NCBI RefSeq assembly: GCF_000328765.2
Contig: NC_019954.2
Span: 252,501 to 316,500, forward strand
DNA: 64,000 nucleotides
Direction of reading: 5' to 3'
DNA from: Tepidanaerobacter acetatoxydans Re1
GTDB lineage: Bacteria > Bacillota > Thermosediminibacteria > Thermosediminibacterales > Tepidanaerobacteraceae
Numbering within the stretch: position 1 is the first letter of the stretch; the number at the start of each line of letters is the position of its first letter. A program made the position numbers and the translations under genes. The notes below the pieces were generated by a model, which made no database searches, was not told where the DNA came from, and saw nothing but the letters and a program-made list of their open reading frames with translations. Positions 5,975 to 15,642 of this stretch are shown piece by piece.

Positions 5975-6208
5975 ATAAAAAGACAACAGAGAAAGCTAGT
6001 AGCTATGATGGGGAAAAGTAAGCTTGGTTCTTTTTTTAGAGAGCCGGCGGATGGTGAAAGCCGGTAAAAGACTTTGCCTAATTCCACCCCGAAGCTGCAT
6101 CTTTAAAAAGATGCCGGGATTTTATATGATTCCGTTAGATGAATTGAGTAATATATAAGGGTGGCAACGCGAGTCCTCTCGCCCCTTTAGGGGTGAGAGG
6201 ACTTTAAT
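5975..6208 (+). promoter_or_regulatory. T-box riboswitch leader of serS
   Basis: A leader of about 230 nt ahead of serS with the T-box hallmark AAGGGTGGCAACGCG (about 6158-6172), the antiterminator sequence that pairs with the uncharged tRNA 3' end. A strong terminator hairpin follows at once: AGTCCTCTCGCCCC-TTTA-GGGGTGAGAGGACTTT. Stem I elements lie in 5975-6110. A TCC at 6083-6085 is a plausible serine specifier, although I could not fold stem I fully. Known mechanism: uncharged tRNA-Ser stabilises the antiterminator and allows serS transcription. Confidence 0.9.
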
Positions 6209-10026: not shown

Positions 10027-10377
10027 ATGCCTAGAGGAGATGGAACTGGTCCTGCCGGATACGGTCCTATGACCGGCCGCAGCAGAGGATTTTGTGCTGG
10101 CTTTTCAGTGCCTGGTTTCCTCAATCCAATTGGAAGAGGATTCGCGGGTAGAGGTAGAGGCTATAGGCATCAGTTTTATGCAACAGGTCTGCCTTTTTGG
10201 GCAAGGGAAGCCAACCCTTTTAAATTTGCTCCGGCTTATAACGCAAAGTATAGTCAAGAAAGCGAAGCCGAGGCTCTTTTACGGGAGGCAAACTTCTTAA
10301 AACAAGAACTTAAAGCCATAGAGGACAGGCTAAATCAATTAAAAGCGACAGAAAAAGAAAATCCCACTGATGATTAG
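10027..10377 (+). CDS. DUF5320 domain-containing protein
   Basis: A 116-residue protein with the glycine- and arginine-rich N-terminus typical of DUF5320: MPRGDGTGPAGYGPMTGRSRGFCAG, then repeated GRGFAGRGRGYRH. It ends in a short coiled coil (EAEALLREANFLKQELKAIEDRLNQLKA). The family is common in anaerobes next to NifX-like and Mrp/MinD-like genes, and its role is not established. AAAGGAGGTG precedes the ATG. The promoter carries two ACATATGT-type sites, so it is probably controlled together with the rest of the cluster. Confidence 0.85.
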   Translation: MPRGDGTGPAGYGPMTGRSRGFCAGFSVPGFLNPIGRGFAGRGRGYRHQFYATGLPFWAREANPFKFAPAYNAKYSQESEAEALLREANFLKQELKAIEDRLNQLKATEKENPTDD

Positions 10378-10550
10378 CAAGATTGAAATCGGACAAATTA
10401 TATTTGTTGGGTGGCCTTATACCACCCAACGATTCTTTTTGCAAGATCTGGTCTAAGCATATTATTTTACTGAAAATGAGCTATTAATTATAATAAAAAG
10501 TAATCAGAAGTATTGAAAAATACTACTTGATTTAAGGAGGAGGAATAACC

Positions 10551-10910
10551 TTGAAAGTAGCTGTAACTTCTGTTGGCAAAGATTTGGATTCTATGATTGA
10601 TGAAAGGTTTGGGCGTTCAAGTTATTTTATTATTGTTGATACTGATTCTGATGAATTTGAGGTATCTGAGAACGAGGGATTAAGCAGTGCTCACGGCACA
10701 GGTGTCCAGGCAGCTCAGTTTATAGTGGAAAAAGGTATTCAAGCCATAATAACCGGAAACATAGGGCCAAATGCTATAAAAGTCCTAAAAGAATCAGGCA
10801 TAGATGTATTTACTGCAAATTCCATGACTGTAAGACAAGCTCTAGCAAATTTTTCAGAAGGTAAACTTGAGAAGATTTCCGGCAGCACTACAGGACAGCA
10901 TAATAAATAG
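10551..10910 (+). CDS. NifX/NifB-type dinitrogenase iron-molybdenum cofactor-like protein
   Basis: A 119-residue single-domain protein of the Nitro_FeMo-Co family (PF02579-like): MKVAVTSVGKDLDSMIDERFGRSSYFIIVDTD followed by GTGVQAAQFIVEKGIQAIITGNIGPNAIKVL. In NifX/NifY/NifB this domain binds FeMo-cofactor precursors. The stand-alone versions in anaerobes are thought to handle Fe-S or other metal clusters. The start is the TTG at 10551, decided by AAGGAGGAGG 7 nt upstream. There is no nitrogenase in the window, so nitrogen fixation should not be inferred. It lies between the DUF5320 and MinD-ferredoxin genes. Confidence 0.88.
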   Translation: MKVAVTSVGKDLDSMIDERFGRSSYFIIVDTDSDEFEVSENEGLSSAHGTGVQAAQFIVEKGIQAIITGNIGPNAIKVLKESGIDVFTANSMTVRQALANFSEGKLEKISGSTTGQHNK

Positions 10911-11021
10911 AACTAAAAAATTTATATATTATCAAAACGGAAAACCCTAAATATTTCGATGACATATAAATAAAAGGAACCGTACTTAATTATTTACTAA
11001 TTATTTAATGGTGGTGAGATT

Positions 11022-11867
11022 ATGATTGTTGCGGTTGCAAGCGGTAAGGGGGGCACCGGAAAAACAACGATAGCAACGAATCTGGCTGCTTCTTTAAAAG
11101 ATACACTATCTGTGCAGCTTTTGGATTGCGATACGGAAGAGCCTAATGTGCATTTGTTCATTGATCATGAGATAAGCCACAGTGAGGATGTTATGCTTGC
11201 CGTTCCTACTATAGACTACGATAAGTGCACTCATTGTGGTATATGTGTTCAAAAATGTGCCTTTAATGCACTGGCAGATATTAAAGTAAAGCTTTTAGTC
11301 TTTGAAGAACTCTGTCACGGCTGTGGCGGCTGCGTGCTGCTTTGTCCTGTCGGAGCTATTGCAGAAACTGACCGAAAAATTGGGAGTGTAAAGAGCGGCC
11401 ATGCCTTCGGCATGAGCTTTATATATGGGATATTGGAAGTTGGAGCGGTTTTAGCTCCACCGGTAATTAAGAAGGTAAAGGCACATATCAAAAACAATAC
11501 TGCCGTTATAATTGATGCACCGCCAGGCACATCCTGTCCTATGATAAATGCAGTATCAGGAGCAGATTATTGTATATTGGTCACAGAACCGACGCCTTTT
11601 GGATTAAGTGACCTTAAACTTGCTCTGAAGGTTGTCCGGGAACTTGAAATCCCATTCGGTGTTATTATAAATCGGGTGGGGATGGAATATCCCGATATGG
11701 AAAACTATTTTTCAAAGGAAGATGTCCCAGTTTTAATGAAGATACCCTTTGACCGGCGATATGCTGCATGCTATGCCGAAGGGAAATTACTTACAGAAGA
11801 ATTTCCTGAGCTCAGAGAAGAATTCAAAAACTTGTGGGATGCCATAGAAAGACAGGTGAAGGCATGA
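11022..11867 (+). CDS. MinD-superfamily P-loop ATPase with two [4Fe-4S] ferredoxin motifs (1)
   Basis: A 281-residue ATPase of the Mrp/MinD/NifH superfamily. A deviant Walker A motif GKGGTGKTT occupies residues 8-16. An inserted ferredoxin domain around residues 65-120 has two full Cx2Cx2Cx3C motifs (CTHCGICVQKC and CHGCGGCVLLC). The Walker B-like region is VIIDAPPGTSCP. Proteins of this type are found as tandem pairs in anaerobes and are presumed to couple ATP hydrolysis to Fe-S or redox cofactor handling. Its stop overlaps the start of the next, paralogous gene (ATGA), so the two are translationally coupled and probably form a heterodimer (inference). Confidence 0.9.
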   Translation: MIVAVASGKGGTGKTTIATNLAASLKDTLSVQLLDCDTEEPNVHLFIDHEISHSEDVMLAVPTIDYDKCTHCGICVQKCAFNALADIKVKLLVFEELCHGCGGCVLLCPVGAIAETDRKIGSVKSGHAFGMSFIYGILEVGAVLAPPVIKKVKAHIKNNTAVIIDAPPGTSCPMINAVSGADYCILVTEPTPFGLSDLKLALKVVRELEIPFGVIINRVGMEYPDMENYFSKEDVPVLMKIPFDRRYAACYAEGKLLTEEFPELREEFKNLWDAIERQVKA

Positions 11868-12727
11868 AGGAATTGGTGATAATCAGCGGAAAAGGCGGAA
11901 CAGGGAAAACCATTGTTACAGCTTCACTGGCAGCTCTTTTAAAAAAATCGGTTTTAACCGATTGCGATGTGGATGCGGCTGATTTATATCTGATTTTAAA
12001 ACCCGAGATAAAGCAAACTTTTGAATTTTGGGTGAGCAAGAAGGCCCGTATTAATCTTACAAAATGTACCAGATGTGGGAAATGTGTAGAGGTTTGCCGT
12101 TTTGATGCTATAACTAATTACAAAGTGAACGAGCATTTTTGTGAAGGCTGCCAAGTGTGCTATAACATTTGTCCTGAAAAGGCCATAGACTTAATTGATA
12201 ACCTTTCAGGCCATTGGTATATTTCAGATACCCGATATGGGCCGATGATTTTTGCAAAACTGGGTATTGCTGAAGAAAACTCAGGGAAGTTGGTGACTGC
12301 TGTCAGAAAAGCTGCTAAAGAAATTGCCGAAAGAAAAGGATATGACCATATAATAACCGATGGGCCTCCAGGAATAGGATGCCCGGTTATCTCGACTTTA
12401 TCAGGAGCTGATACGGCTTTAGTTATAACGGAACCTACAGTTTCGGGCAAACATGATCTTGACAGAGTAATCAGGCTTTCAAAGAATTTCAAGGTAAAAG
12501 TAAAAGTCATTATTAATAAATATGACCTTTCCCTTAGAAAGAGTTTTGAAATCGAAAAATACTGTAATAATATAGGTATTGAAGTTATAGGTAAAATTCC
12601 ATTTGATGAGGACGTAGTAAAATCTATTGCTAAGGAAACTCCATTGGTAGAATTTTCTCGAGGTCCCGCAGCTAAGGCGTTGGCAGATATAGCGAAAAGG
12701 CTTATTGACATATGTTCATTACAGTAG
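11864..12727 (+). CDS. MinD-superfamily P-loop ATPase with two [4Fe-4S] ferredoxin motifs (2)
   Basis: A 287-residue paralogue of the preceding ATPase. Walker A is GKGGTGKT at residues 8-15, and ferredoxin motifs are CTRCGKCVEVC and CEGCQVCYNIC, with IITDGPPGIGCP later. The start is the ATG at 11864, inside an ATGA overlap with the upstream stop; a longer frame from 11834 has no merit. It carries an additional stretch around residues 120-165 (HWYISDTRYGPMIFAKLGIAEENSGKLV) typical of the second member of such pairs. The end of this gene contains the promoter of the DUF134 regulator. Confidence 0.9.
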   Translation: MKELVIISGKGGTGKTIVTASLAALLKKSVLTDCDVDAADLYLILKPEIKQTFEFWVSKKARINLTKCTRCGKCVEVCRFDAITNYKVNEHFCEGCQVCYNICPEKAIDLIDNLSGHWYISDTRYGPMIFAKLGIAEENSGKLVTAVRKAAKEIAERKGYDHIITDGPPGIGCPVISTLSGADTALVITEPTVSGKHDLDRVIRLSKNFKVKVKVIINKYDLSLRKSFEIEKYCNNIGIEVIGKIPFDEDVVKSIAKETPLVEFSRGPAAKALADIAKRLIDICSLQ

Positions 12728-12733
12728 TAAAAT
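12705..12733 (+). promoter_or_regulatory. DUF134 gene promoter with ACATATGT site
   Basis: TTGACA (12705-12710), a 17-nt spacer and TAAAAT (12728-12733). The sequence TTGACATATGTTCATTA at the -35 closely matches TTGACATATGTCCATAA at the DUF5320 promoter, although it lies within the 3' end of the upstream coding region. This looks like an autoregulatory site for the DUF134 protein (inference). Confidence 0.6.
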
Positions 12734-12765
12734 ACCTTTAGAATTAGAGTGAGAGGAGTGTGAGC

Positions 12766-13212
12766 GTGGCAAGACCACCTAAATGGCGTCATGTGGAGTT
12801 TATACCTGATATAACATATTTTAAGCCTGCCGGAGTGCCTTTACGACAGTTGGATGAAGTGGTTTTAACGGTAGAAGAGCTTGAAGCATTAAGGTTAAAA
12901 GACCTAGAGGGCCTTGAACAGGAACCCTGTGCCGAAAGAATGAATATCTCCCGGCCGACTTTTATCCGAATTATAAATTCAGCTCGCACAAAAGTTGCCG
13001 AAGCACTTGTTAAAGGTAAAGCCATTCGAATCGAAGGCGGAACATATCAATTTGTCAGGCCTTTAAAATGCTGGGATTGCGGAAATGAATGGAGTCAACC
13101 ACAGGACGAAACCAGCAAGGAATGCCCTAATTGCCACAGCACTAACTGGGCGCCCAAAAGGATGCAGAGAGGTCGATGCCATGGGCATAACCGGCAAGAT
13201 ATACCGGATTAA
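12766..13212 (+). CDS. DUF134 family DNA-binding protein with C-terminal zinc ribbon
   Basis: A 148-residue protein. Residues 1-95 are the DUF134 helix-turn-helix region ([22 protein letters not shown] at the start, then [49 protein letters not shown]). This is followed by a zinc ribbon with two CxxC pairs (CWDCGNEW and CPNCHS). I chose the GTG at 12766, 7 nt after AGAGGAG and giving the usual family N-terminus, over the GTG at 12760. DUF134 genes commonly travel with NifX-like and Mrp-like genes, and this is the obvious candidate to bind the repeated ACATATGT motif. Confidence 0.85.
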
Positions 13213-13257
13213 AGCAAGAATTTCAAATATTTTTCTCAGAATGAAAGGGTGTATTTG

Positions 13258-14055
13258 GTGAAACAACAGGAAGGCAATGAAAGCAATAAAGAACAAACAA
13301 TCAAAAAAGAGCCTCAAGAAGCATCAGCAGCGGGATTAAACCGCATAAAAAAAGTAATAGCTGTTATGAGCGGAAAAGGTGGCGTAGGCAAATCAACAGT
13401 GACAGGTCTTTTAGCAGTAAGCCTCAAAAAACAGGGTTACAGTGTGGGCATAATGGATGCGGACATAACAGGCCCAAGTATTCCTCGCATGTTCGGTATA
13501 AACAAAAGACCTGAAAATCTGGAATTTGGGCTTATGCCGGCAGAAAGCTCAACAGGTATCCGTATTATGTCTTTAAATCTTCTGCTGGAAAACGAGGATG
13601 ATCCGGTTATTTGGCGAGGACCTTTGATAGGCAACGCCATACAGCAGTTTTGGAATGATGTAGTGTGGGGCGATTTGGACTACCTGTTGGTGGATCTGCC
13701 GCCTGGAACAAGTGATGCGCCTCTAACCGTAATGCAGTCACTGCCCGTGGACGGCCTTATCGTCGTTTCATCACCACAGGAATTAGTGGGCATGGTAGTC
13801 AAGAAAGCTGTTAAAATGGCAAATATGATGGATATTAGAGTAATCGGCCTCATTGAAAACTATAGTTATATGGTTTGTCCCAAGTGTAAAGAAAAAATAG
13901 AGGTATTCGGCAAGAGCCGGGGCGAAGAGGGAGCAAAAGAAGCAAATGTCCCTTATCTAGGTTCACTGCCTATTGACTATAAGTTAGCCAAGTTTTGTGA
14001 TGAAGGTCGAATAGAAGAGTATGAAAGCACAATTTTCACAGACTCCCGTTTTTAG
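13258..14055 (+). CDS. Mrp/NBP35 family Fe-S cluster carrier ATPase
   Basis: About 265 residues with a short hydrophilic N-terminal tail and then the Mrp core: Walker A SGKGGVGKST, LMDADITGPSIPRMFG (switch I region), VIWRGPL and YLLVDLPPGTSDAP (switch II and Walker B). A C-terminal CPKC motif may bridge a [4Fe-4S] cluster at the dimer interface. Mrp/ApbC proteins bind and transfer Fe-S clusters. The GTG at 13258 is preferred over that at 13249 because of its distance from AAAGGGTG. It ends with a poorly conserved tail. Confidence 0.9.
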   Translation: MKQQEGNESNKEQTIKKEPQEASAAGLNRIKKVIAVMSGKGGVGKSTVTGLLAVSLKKQGYSVGIMDADITGPSIPRMFGINKRPENLEFGLMPAESSTGIRIMSLNLLLENEDDPVIWRGPLIGNAIQQFWNDVVWGDLDYLLVDLPPGTSDAPLTVMQSLPVDGLIVVSSPQELVGMVVKKAVKMANMMDIRVIGLIENYSYMVCPKCKEKIEVFGKSRGEEGAKEANVPYLGSLPIDYKLAKFCDEGRIEEYESTIFTDSRF

Positions 14056-14227
14056 TGGCGGTTCCAAATTATTCACGTTGCACGTAAATATTCATTCCGA
14101 GAGTCATAAGAGGGTAAATCCGATGTCATTCTTCAGTGCTTATCATATGTATATAAGAGATGCTAAGGGAAAAGAAGAATGATAAAGTAGATTGCCAAAA
14201 TATAGAAAGAGGAGGAATTGATTACTT

Positions 14228-14569
14228 ATGAAAATAGCCATACCTACGGATAAAGGTCAAGTTTCCGCCCATTTCGGGCATTGTGAAGAATTTACCATAT
14301 ATGATGTAAATGAAAGCGAAAAAAGGGTAAACTCAAAAGAGTGTATTACTAACCCGGGCCATCAACCCGGATTTTTACCGAGATTTTTAGCAAAACAAGG
14401 TATTAACTGTATAATTGCCGGAGGCATGGGATTAAAAGCCAAGCAGCTCTTTGACCAAAATAACATACAAACCATAACCGGTGCTGCAGGTATAGTTGAT
14501 GAAGTAATACAGGATTATCTAGAAGGAAACCTTATCAGCAACGAAAGCTATTGTGACCACCATGAATAA
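14228..14569 (+). CDS. NifX/NifB-type cofactor-binding-like protein (second copy)
   Basis: A 113-residue single-domain protein of the same PF02579-like family as the gene at 10551, but clearly divergent: MKIAIPTDKGQVSAHFGHCEEFTIYDVNESE, then NPGHQPGFLPRFLAKQGINCIIAGGMGLKAKQLFDQ. It contains several His and Cys residues (HFGHCEE, and YCDHHE at the end) that could bind metal. AAAGAGGAGG lies about 10 nt before the ATG. An ATCATATGTATATAA sequence lies about 80 bp upstream and resembles the cluster operator. It closes the cofactor cluster. Confidence 0.88.
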   Translation: MKIAIPTDKGQVSAHFGHCEEFTIYDVNESEKRVNSKECITNPGHQPGFLPRFLAKQGINCIIAGGMGLKAKQLFDQNNIQTITGAAGIVDEVIQDYLEGNLISNESYCDHHE

Positions 14570-14593
14570 TTAGGGACGGTTCCAAATTATTCA

Positions 14594-14623
14594 TTGACAG
14601 CTGTTCCTGGAAAGTGTTAGAAT
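14594..14623 (+). promoter_or_regulatory. Promoter of the TM1266/ECF unit
   Basis: TTGACA (14594-14599) and TAGAAT (14618-14623) with an 18-nt spacer. Transcription would begin near 14630, giving a 180-nt leader before the first start codon. Confidence 0.6.
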
Positions 14624-14629
14624 AAAATT

Positions 14630-14790
14630 AACATCTGATGTTTCGGCGGCTTCCGATACAGAAGATGAAAAAGTCCATAACTTCCTGATTGCAAGGAATG
14701 TCTGAGCAAAAAGGTGAAGGACCGAGTAAAAGCATGTTTATATACTAAATGCAAAAATACCTTCGACTTTTTGTCGAGGGTTTTATTTTT
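14630..14790 (+). promoter_or_regulatory. Structured leader RNA with terminator, candidate riboswitch or attenuator
   Basis: The leader between the promoter and the TM1266-type gene contains a hairpin at 14639-14660 (TGT and TCGG arms pairing with CCGA and ACA). A longer-range GTCC/GGAC pairing with an inner TTCC/GGAA hairpin follows. Last comes a Rho-independent terminator (CCTTCGAC-TTTTT-GTCGAGGG and a T run, 14760-14790) that ends before the ribosome site. A terminator inside a leader implies conditional readthrough. I do not recognise a known riboswitch class. Confidence 0.5.
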
Positions 14791-14809
14791 ATAAAGGTGG
14801 AGGTAAGTT

Positions 14810-15058
14810 ATGGACAAAAGAATTGGTGTTGTAGGTATTGTTGTTGAGGATTTAGAAAGTGCTAATGCAGTCAACTCCATACTGCATGAGTATGCGCAAA
14901 TTATTGTAGGTAGAATGGGGATTCCTTATAGGGAAAAAGGTGTTTCAGTGATATCACTTATTGTGGATGGCACTTCAGATGAAATTAGTGCCATGACAGG
15001 AAAACTTGGTAAAATCAAGGCTGTTTCTGTAAAGTCCGCAATGACTAAAAAGGCCTGA
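14810..15058 (+). CDS. TM1266-type iron-only hydrogenase system regulator
   Basis: An 82-residue ACT-like protein that fits the short TM1266 family: MDKRIGVVGIVVEDLESANAVNSILHEYAQIIVGRMGIPYREKGVSVISLIVDGTSDEISAMTGKLGKIKAVSVKS. Family members accompany [FeFe]-hydrogenase genes and are annotated as putative regulators; the biochemical role is not settled. Here no hydrogenase gene is adjacent. The gene follows a structured leader with a terminator and lies 56 bp before a membrane-protein gene. AAGGTGGAGG precedes the ATG. Confidence 0.85.
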   Translation: MDKRIGVVGIVVEDLESANAVNSILHEYAQIIVGRMGIPYREKGVSVISLIVDGTSDEISAMTGKLGKIKAVSVKSAMTKKA

Positions 15059-15114: not shown

Positions 15115-15642
15115 GTGTATATGGATAAAGATGCTCTTAAACCTTTTAGTATTAGATGGCTTACTAGAACTGCCATACTTTTGGCTATAACACTGGCTTT
15201 TCAAATGCTGGGTTTTCCTCAGATGGTAACCGGTCCTGCCGTAAATGCCATGCTGCTTATTTCCGGAACATATGTGGGTATAATTGGAGCGGTAATCATC
15301 GGCATGCTAACACCGCTTATTGCCTTTGTCAGAGGCATTTTAGCACCGCCGCTGGCACCTATGATTCCGTTTATTATGCTGGGGAATGCTGTATTAGTGA
15401 TTGTATATGTGGCAGCTCGCTCTAAATTAGGTAAGGGCTATGCGGGTACTGCTATCGGTCTTATTATAGGTGCAATAGTTAAGTTTTTAGTGCTCTCATC
15501 CGCAGTTAGATTTATTGTAAGTGTACCACCTCCCGTAGCAAAGGCTATGCAGATACCCCAGCTGTATACTGCATTACTAGGCGGTGTGGTTGCATTTATA
15601 GTAGAAAAAATTTTAGATGCAGCTATTAAGCAAAACAGCTGA
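15115..15642 (+). CDS. ECF transporter S-component-like membrane protein
   Basis: A 175-residue polytopic protein with about five or six helices, glycine-rich (QMVTGPAVNAMLLISGTYVGIIGAVIIGMLTPLIAFVRGILAPPLAPMIPFIMLGNAVLVIVYVAA). The size and pattern match ECF S components or related small vitamin/ion uptake proteins. The substrate is unknown. The start is the GTG at 15115 or the ATG at 15121; AAGGGGG sits 4 or 10 nt ahead, so the choice is open. It is probably co-transcribed with the TM1266-type regulator. A weak hairpin with a T run (about 15675-15706) follows. Confidence 0.65.
   Translation: MYMDKDALKPFSIRWLTRTAILLAITLAFQMLGFPQMVTGPAVNAMLLISGTYVGIIGAVIIGMLTPLIAFVRGILAPPLAPMIPFIMLGNAVLVIVYVAARSKLGKGYAGTAIGLIIGAIVKFLVLSSAVRFIVSVPPPVAKAMQIPQLYTALLGGVVAFIVEKILDAAIKQNS

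Follow-up and report, generated by a model that had tools for sequence, protein, structure and literature searches.

A conserved leader RNA upstream of TM1266-family and H-cluster assembly genes in Bacillota

What does a structured 180-nt leader between a promoter and a TM1266-family gene do, and to which RNA class does it belong? We addressed this in Tepidanaerobacter acetatoxydans Re1, whose genome is a single contig of 2.76 Mb, using a stretch of 64,000 nucleotides (the window). TM1266 proteins have so far been annotated only as putative regulators without a known target, and we found no dedicated regulatory input to H-cluster assembly in Bacillota described in the literature searched. The earlier note, made from the letters of the window alone, had described a promoter, at least two hairpins and a Rho-independent terminator placed ahead of the ribosome site, followed by genes for a hydrogenase-linked regulator and a membrane uptake protein. 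It had read this arrangement as a riboswitch or attenuator of no recognisable class. Our analysis bore out each of these elements. It also supported the proposed architecture through covarying homologous leaders and their terminators, and both a protein regulator and a riboswitch are compatible with it.

Layout of the leader and its surroundings

The features of the leader are collected in Table 1. The promoter matches the consensus at 11 of 12 positions and scored highest among the 12 promoter-like sites of the region, where such sites were not enriched overall (9.5 expected). The leader transcript is expected to start near 14630, and homologues at the family level have a comparable TTGACA/TATAAT-like spacing ahead of hairpin A. 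For the whole leader (14630-14809), the calculated folding energy was -48.9 kcal/mol (z -3.5), with none of 200 shuffles reaching so low a value, and the sub-span 14630-14790 reached a z of -4.1 against shuffles. Core hairpin B, 31 nt long, follows the scheme C-CUGA-[3 bp]-RAGG-loop-CUGA-[3 bp]-RAGG. The CUGA/RAGG internal loop is present in two facing copies across a 3-bp helix in the core, and a third copy is found in hairpin A.

Table 1 Features of the leader and of the genes behind it, in window coordinates.
Feature	Position	Strand	Description	Basis
Sigma-70-type promoter	14594..14623	+	-35 TTGACA 14594-14599; -10 TAGAAT 14618-14623; spacer 18 nt; extended TG	
Hairpin A	14632..14667	+	CAUCU-GA-UGU...ACA-GA-AGAUG; one CUGA/RA internal-loop module	Folding; covarying pairs in family alignment A1
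Outer helix P0	14673..14722	+	GUCC 14673-14676 pairs with GGAC 14719-14722; encloses the core; observed in the Tepidanaerobacter family	Folding; alignment A1
Core hairpin B	14684..14714	+	CCU-GAU-UGC-AA-GGA-AUG-UCU-GA-GCA-AAA-AGG; conserved unit	Alignments A1, A2, A4; covariation
Antiterminator, 5' half	14709..14720	+	AAAAGGUGAAGG; overlaps both the core and P0 on their 3' sides	
Antiterminator, 3' half	14760..14772	+	CCUUCGACUUUUU; also part of the terminator (5' arm and loop)	
Intrinsic terminator	14759..14790	+	Stem 14759-14781 (9 pairs), then UUUAUUUUU; U-rich tail 14782-14790	
Ribosome binding site	14794..14804	+	AAGGUGGAGGU; upstream of ATG 14810	Read from sequence
TM1266-family gene	14810..15058	+	82 aa, pI 9.0; iron-only hydrogenase system putative regulator; candidate trans-acting factor	PF21699, TIGR03959
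ECF transporter substrate-specific (S) component gene	15115..15642	+	175 aa; next gene, same strand	PF12822

The product of the first downstream gene is a clear member of the TM1266 family (PF21699, E 2.4e-35; TIGR03959, 123 bits vs a cut-off of 60.8), which has a solved relative, 2nzc. The ECF gene is probably co-transcribed with it. Its protein scored 29.6 bits with PF12822, slightly below the cut-off of 30.7, and is 98% identical to its counterpart in Tepidanaerobacter sp. EBM-38. A comparison of this protein with PDB sequences gave no match, and NCBIfam names no substrate for it.

Covariance searches with the 4227 models of Rfam 15 returned no family at or above its gathering threshold for the window leader or its homologues, only noise; hairpin A, like the core, was without a family match, and neither the T-box (RF00230) at the leader nor the THF-II model was matched. 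The RUF2, PyrR and ohsC matches at the leader were at chance level (E 2.4-3.3), the PyrR binding site (RF00515) reaching 18.3 bits with E 3, where its gathering score is 54. The families of a 2017 paper on 224 motifs are reportedly included in Rfam. In the literature open to searching, which excluded supplementary tables and subscription papers, no study was found that links a riboswitch or similar element to hydG, hydE, hydEFG, TM1266 or the H-cluster, and a buried record is possible. The main texts of three papers on the discovery of GC-IGR candidates (PMC8632094, PMC11109978, PMC6429828) yielded no motif linked to hydE, hydG or hydrogenase. The candidates of these papers and the THF-II/folE motif (PMC6800512) share with the new RNA a compact conserved hairpin in the 5' leader of cofactor genes and an expression platform of the transcriptional or the translational type. 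By these comparisons the leader is placed in a previously uncatalogued RNA class.

We also recorded several elements near the leader and elsewhere in the window. The short repeat GGTTCCAAATTATTCA occurs twice in the window, at ~14060-14075 and ~14580-14595. The second copy ends at the start of the -35 box, which suggests that a repeat element abuts the promoter. The region directly upstream (10027-14569) encodes P-loop ATPases (11022-12727 and 13249-14055), a DUF134 protein (12760-13212) and NifX/dinitrogenase-cofactor-like proteins (10551 and 14228). Two of the encoded proteins (13249 and 14228) correspond to distinct parts of the MrpORP iron-sulfur carrier model. A T-box leader (RF00230, 105.6 bits) is located at 5996-6189.

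Conservation and genomic distribution of the core

A DNA search within the family identified homologous leaders in 9 of 13 genomes. Some were located ahead of a TM1266 gene and an ECF gene, as in the window, and others ahead of hydE, which encodes a radical SAM maturase of the H-cluster; their alignment (A1) gave a consensus with compensatory changes. A covariance model, R1, found divergent copies ahead of hydE-hydF (L102), TM1266-hydG (L108) and hydE-hydG-TM1266 (L110, L170). In a neighbouring family, a compact version such as CCUGACGCAAGGGUAGUCCUGAGCGAAGGGGG (L084 and L090) coincided with the ribosome site of ECF S-component genes, which are homologues of the ECF gene in the window. The first phylum-level matches of R1 (L109, L111, L112) fitted the core poorly and were rejected as noise. 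With a core-only model, R3, the window core scored 39.8 bits (E 3.1e-6) and was the sole clear copy in its own genome; weak matches there (L106, L107, L273) were not credible copies.

We then searched 398 genomes of this phylum by HMM, located TM1266 genes in 213 of them and retrieved the surroundings of many of these genes. A pattern specifying helices P1 and P3 and the conserved loop bases, with the middle helix P2 left free, was searched in 135 distinct TM1266 upstream regions. It was found in 50 of them, vs 0.35 in shuffles and 1 on the antisense strand. This count is a lower bound; leaders outside the strict pattern often resemble variants of the same layout. P2, which was not used for detection, was complementary in 40 of the 50 leaders, vs a mean of 7.8 when partners were swapped between loci (maximum 16 in 500). 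An alignment of 43 sequences (A4) had 25, 25, 16 and 21 double changes at four pairs, those of P2 and the last one of P3, and its covariation score was 0.600, vs 0.186 for shuffled alignments and at most 0.177 for slid structures. The A4 sequences were selected partly for pairing, so the P2 test on the 50 leaders is the cleaner one. The consensus of the core is C-CUGA-N-[P2]-RA-GG-N...N-CUGA-[P2']-A-RR-GGG, and a strict version of hairpin A was present in 10 of 47 TM1266-gene leaders, vs 0.2 in shuffles.

The comparison of leaders of TM1266-type genes therefore revealed strong covariation, and conservation together with covariation in homologous upstream regions places the feature well beyond chance. 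A conserved, structured 5'-leader element with covariation is also what a riboswitch would need, and this was fulfilled. One rival reading would be an ordinary promoter-proximal terminator with incidental hairpins and no conserved switch, as intrinsic terminators are common between operons. Conservation over dozens of families, the covariation and a specific regulon refute it at the level of conservation, and we give it next to no credence. Whatever its sensor, we are close to certain that the leader is a genuine cis-regulatory RNA, conserved and belonging to H-cluster genes.

Variants of the core were also observed. The leader in L070 (1441-1566, minus strand) carries a repeat-like hairpin insert of 30-40 nt (ACACAGGGGGTCAGTCCCTCTGTG) in the terminal loop of the core, with all helices intact. 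As the insert spares every stem, it is a natural sign that the core needs its helices and can do without its loop. Five leaders (L156, L209, L215, L219, L228) contain tandem cores, two per leader and 44-50 nt apart. Six TM1266 leaders (L171, L172, L176, L177, L189, L208) have a divergent motif (e.g. CUGAUUAGGCAAGGAUUCGUUCCGAACUGCAAGG) that the core model barely scored, and these may constitute a subtype. A molybdenum/tungsten cofactor riboswitch (RF01055) was found in L178 at 1033-1153, ~2.5 kb upstream of a TM1266 leader with the new RNA.

To obtain a census, we ran R3 over the 398 genomes and classified all 98 sites with E<=0.0075, the point where labelling stopped; R3 E-values are rough. 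TM1266 labels came mostly from HMM coordinates and most others were confirmed by BLAST, with HMM confirmation for HydG (674 bits), HydE (371 bits), HydF and the transporter. Of the 98 sites, 53 directly preceded TM1266, and 26 were located before hydG, 6 of these between TM1266 and hydG. Four sites preceded hydE and two hydF, six an ECF S-component gene and one an ABC transporter with an SsuA-family binding protein. Of the remainder, two were at contig ends and four, in G252, G408, G261:C180 and G044, were counted as false matches inside unrelated coding genes. R3 was trained mainly on TM1266 leaders, and the share of TM1266 sites may be inflated. A few genomes beyond Bacillota, including Calditrichaeota and KSB1 bins, gave no match and are too few to conclude from.

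As judged from these matches, the RNA is placed almost only before genes for [FeFe]-hydrogenase H-cluster assembly across Bacillota. The sites before genes other than TM1266 indicate that the association is with the pathway. The RNA is thus widespread, and its specificity is for the system that assembles the H-cluster (TM1266, hydE, hydF, hydG), which goes beyond what the earlier note had claimed. The ABC transporters and ECF S-components suggest an uptake step in H-cluster biosynthesis, and the RNA points to these unassigned transporters as part of the pathway. The RNA is a well-defined cis element whose regulon (TM1266, hydE, hydF, hydG and transporters) is clear; it makes what cells sense when making the hydrogenase cofactor directly testable, and it would offer a handle for engineering hydrogen production. 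SsuABC/NMT1-type ABC transporters were located directly behind the RNA in L275 (634-3185) and behind a TM1266 gene with the RNA in L312 (1037-3502, minus strand).

Predicted expression platform

A terminator-like hairpin was found between the core and the start codon in all 50 core-bearing leaders, vs 30% of dinucleotide shuffles. In the window, the two antiterminator halves can form 12 bp (-11.1 kcal/mol), and the terminated and antiterminated folds were calculated at -44.7 and -32.8 kcal/mol. Given this large difference in favour of termination, reaching the on state must depend on kinetics or on a factor. Part of the antiterminator was present in the minimum-energy fold of a transcript ending at 14770. 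Across families, antiterminator complementarity was modestly better than in swapped controls (-15.8 vs -13.4 kcal/mol), and 26% of leaders beat 90% of their swaps, where 10% would be expected. Individual cases were striking (L125, L211, L165, L191).

The leader is most likely a transcription attenuator, predicted to decide whether transcription continues. As long as the core stays folded together with P0 and hairpin A, its 3' strand would be unavailable, the terminator would form and the TM1266-ECF operon would be off. When the core opens, the 3' strand would pair with the 5' arm of the terminator and RNA polymerase would read through. In some relatives, the 3' strand of the core is the ribosome site itself (ECF genes, and hydG in L280 and L297), and in these a translational version of the putative switch is likely, with control acting on translation. 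The core of the L280 and L297 hydG leaders lies close to a TATAAT-like sequence, and ~40 nt may suffice as a switch there. An expression platform acting through a terminator or the ribosome site, the second thing that a riboswitch would need, was fulfilled at the level of sequence only. A PyrR-like mechanism would need a terminator after the conserved hairpin, and this was likewise present. It would also need an antiterminator in competition with both that hairpin and the terminator; here the 12-bp pairing of the window stands beside the merely modest excess over swapped controls across families.

Candidate sensors of the leader

In PyrR attenuation, binding sites are located before the regulator gene, inside the operon and before transporter and pathway-enzyme genes. 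The new RNA is similar to the PyrR attenuators of pyr operons (RF00515) in its inferred anti-antiterminator hairpin with a terminator and a predicted competing antiterminator. A further likeness is where the sites lie, ahead of the gene for the regulator (TM1266 in this case), again within the operon, and ahead of transporter and pathway genes; the regulator is also likely to be small in both. It differs from PyrR attenuators in sequence, structure, protein family and pathway. HutP, TRAP and LicT/SacY-RAT are further systems in which a small protein acts on a leader element and controls a terminator; their RNA elements are not known to resemble the new core.

The core could be held by TM1266, probably together with a small effector; this is an inference and a choice among open options. 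In such a PyrR-like scheme, a small regulator would govern, along with its own gene, those of a transporter and of the pathway via repeated anti-antiterminator hairpins. We favour TM1266 on the basis of the strict co-occurrence of the RNA with TM1266, the repeated pseudo-symmetric CUGA/RAGG modules, the tandem cores (L156, L209, L215), the second sites between TM1266 and hydG, and the basic pI. We assign a probability of roughly 0.5 to the whole chain, in which the leader is an attenuator of H-cluster assembly genes held by TM1266 as an RNA-binding factor; there are no binding data, and the direction of control is inferred. TM1266 proteins would then be a new family of RNA-binding attenuation regulators that read repeated CUGA/RAGG hairpins across Bacillota and control how the cofactor of [FeFe]-hydrogenase is built and how something needed for it is taken up. 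As binding is inferred, we consider the odds of this generalisation to be about even.

The co-occurrence requires some care. TM1266 was present in all 72 genomes with a confident non-coding RNA match. Among genomes with a strong HydG, the RNA was found in 71 of 183 with TM1266 vs 0 of 29 without it (Fisher 3e-6, uncorrected for relatedness). An R3 scan of 20 hydG regions from 19 HydG-positive genomes without TM1266 gave nothing at E<=1, and a scan of 84 TM1266 regions gave 59 matches. TM1266 is found in 86% of strong-HydG genomes anyway. The association is also partly built in, because over half of the RNA sites directly precede TM1266 and loss of the gene takes the leader with it. Only the ~39 sites before other genes are informative for the link.

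A metabolite or ion riboswitch remains a serious contender, which we hold to be possible and place behind the TM1266-dependent scheme. The core itself would bind a small molecule connected with the assembly of the H-cluster or with its precursors. Binding would stabilise the core and the terminator or hide the ribosome site, and either this ligand or a precursor would be what the transporters take up; ligand binding is likewise inferred. Highly conserved internal-loop bases flanking short covarying helices fit this possibility, as do the presence of both transcriptional and translational platforms, a regulon of pathway enzymes, ECF S-components and an SsuA/NMT1-type ABC transporter, and tandem cores like those of tandem riboswitches. 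However, strict co-occurrence with TM1266 would be unexpected for a self-sensing RNA, the few conserved bases and the two-fold arrangement of modules fit a protein oligomer, and there is no obvious single ligand.

TM1266 proteins are small and basic, with a median pI of 8.4. The fold of 2nzc, which we take to be ACT-like and related to the NikR effector domain, would allow an effector. We know of no RNA-binding activity for TM1266, and the titles and abstracts of the literature naming it contained nothing about its function. This absence leaves room for another RNA-binding protein, or a trans-acting RNA, that uses the leader while TM1266 is merely a regulated passenger, and many attenuators are generally known to use dedicated proteins. 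However, the RNA co-occurs with TM1266, and no other gene was noticed to accompany the RNA across families, in the absence of a systematic search. We regard such a factor as improbable and retain TM1266 as the favoured one.

Several genomes with the RNA before other genes (e.g. G001, G002, G008 and the f2 genomes) encode TM1266 elsewhere, with no visible leader and behind what resembles a divIVA-type gene. In nine loci from several families (L150, L158, L160, L130, L132, L144, L203, L220, L238), inspection by eye placed a TM1266-family gene without a visible leader just behind apparent divIVA-type or S4-domain (ylmH-like) genes.
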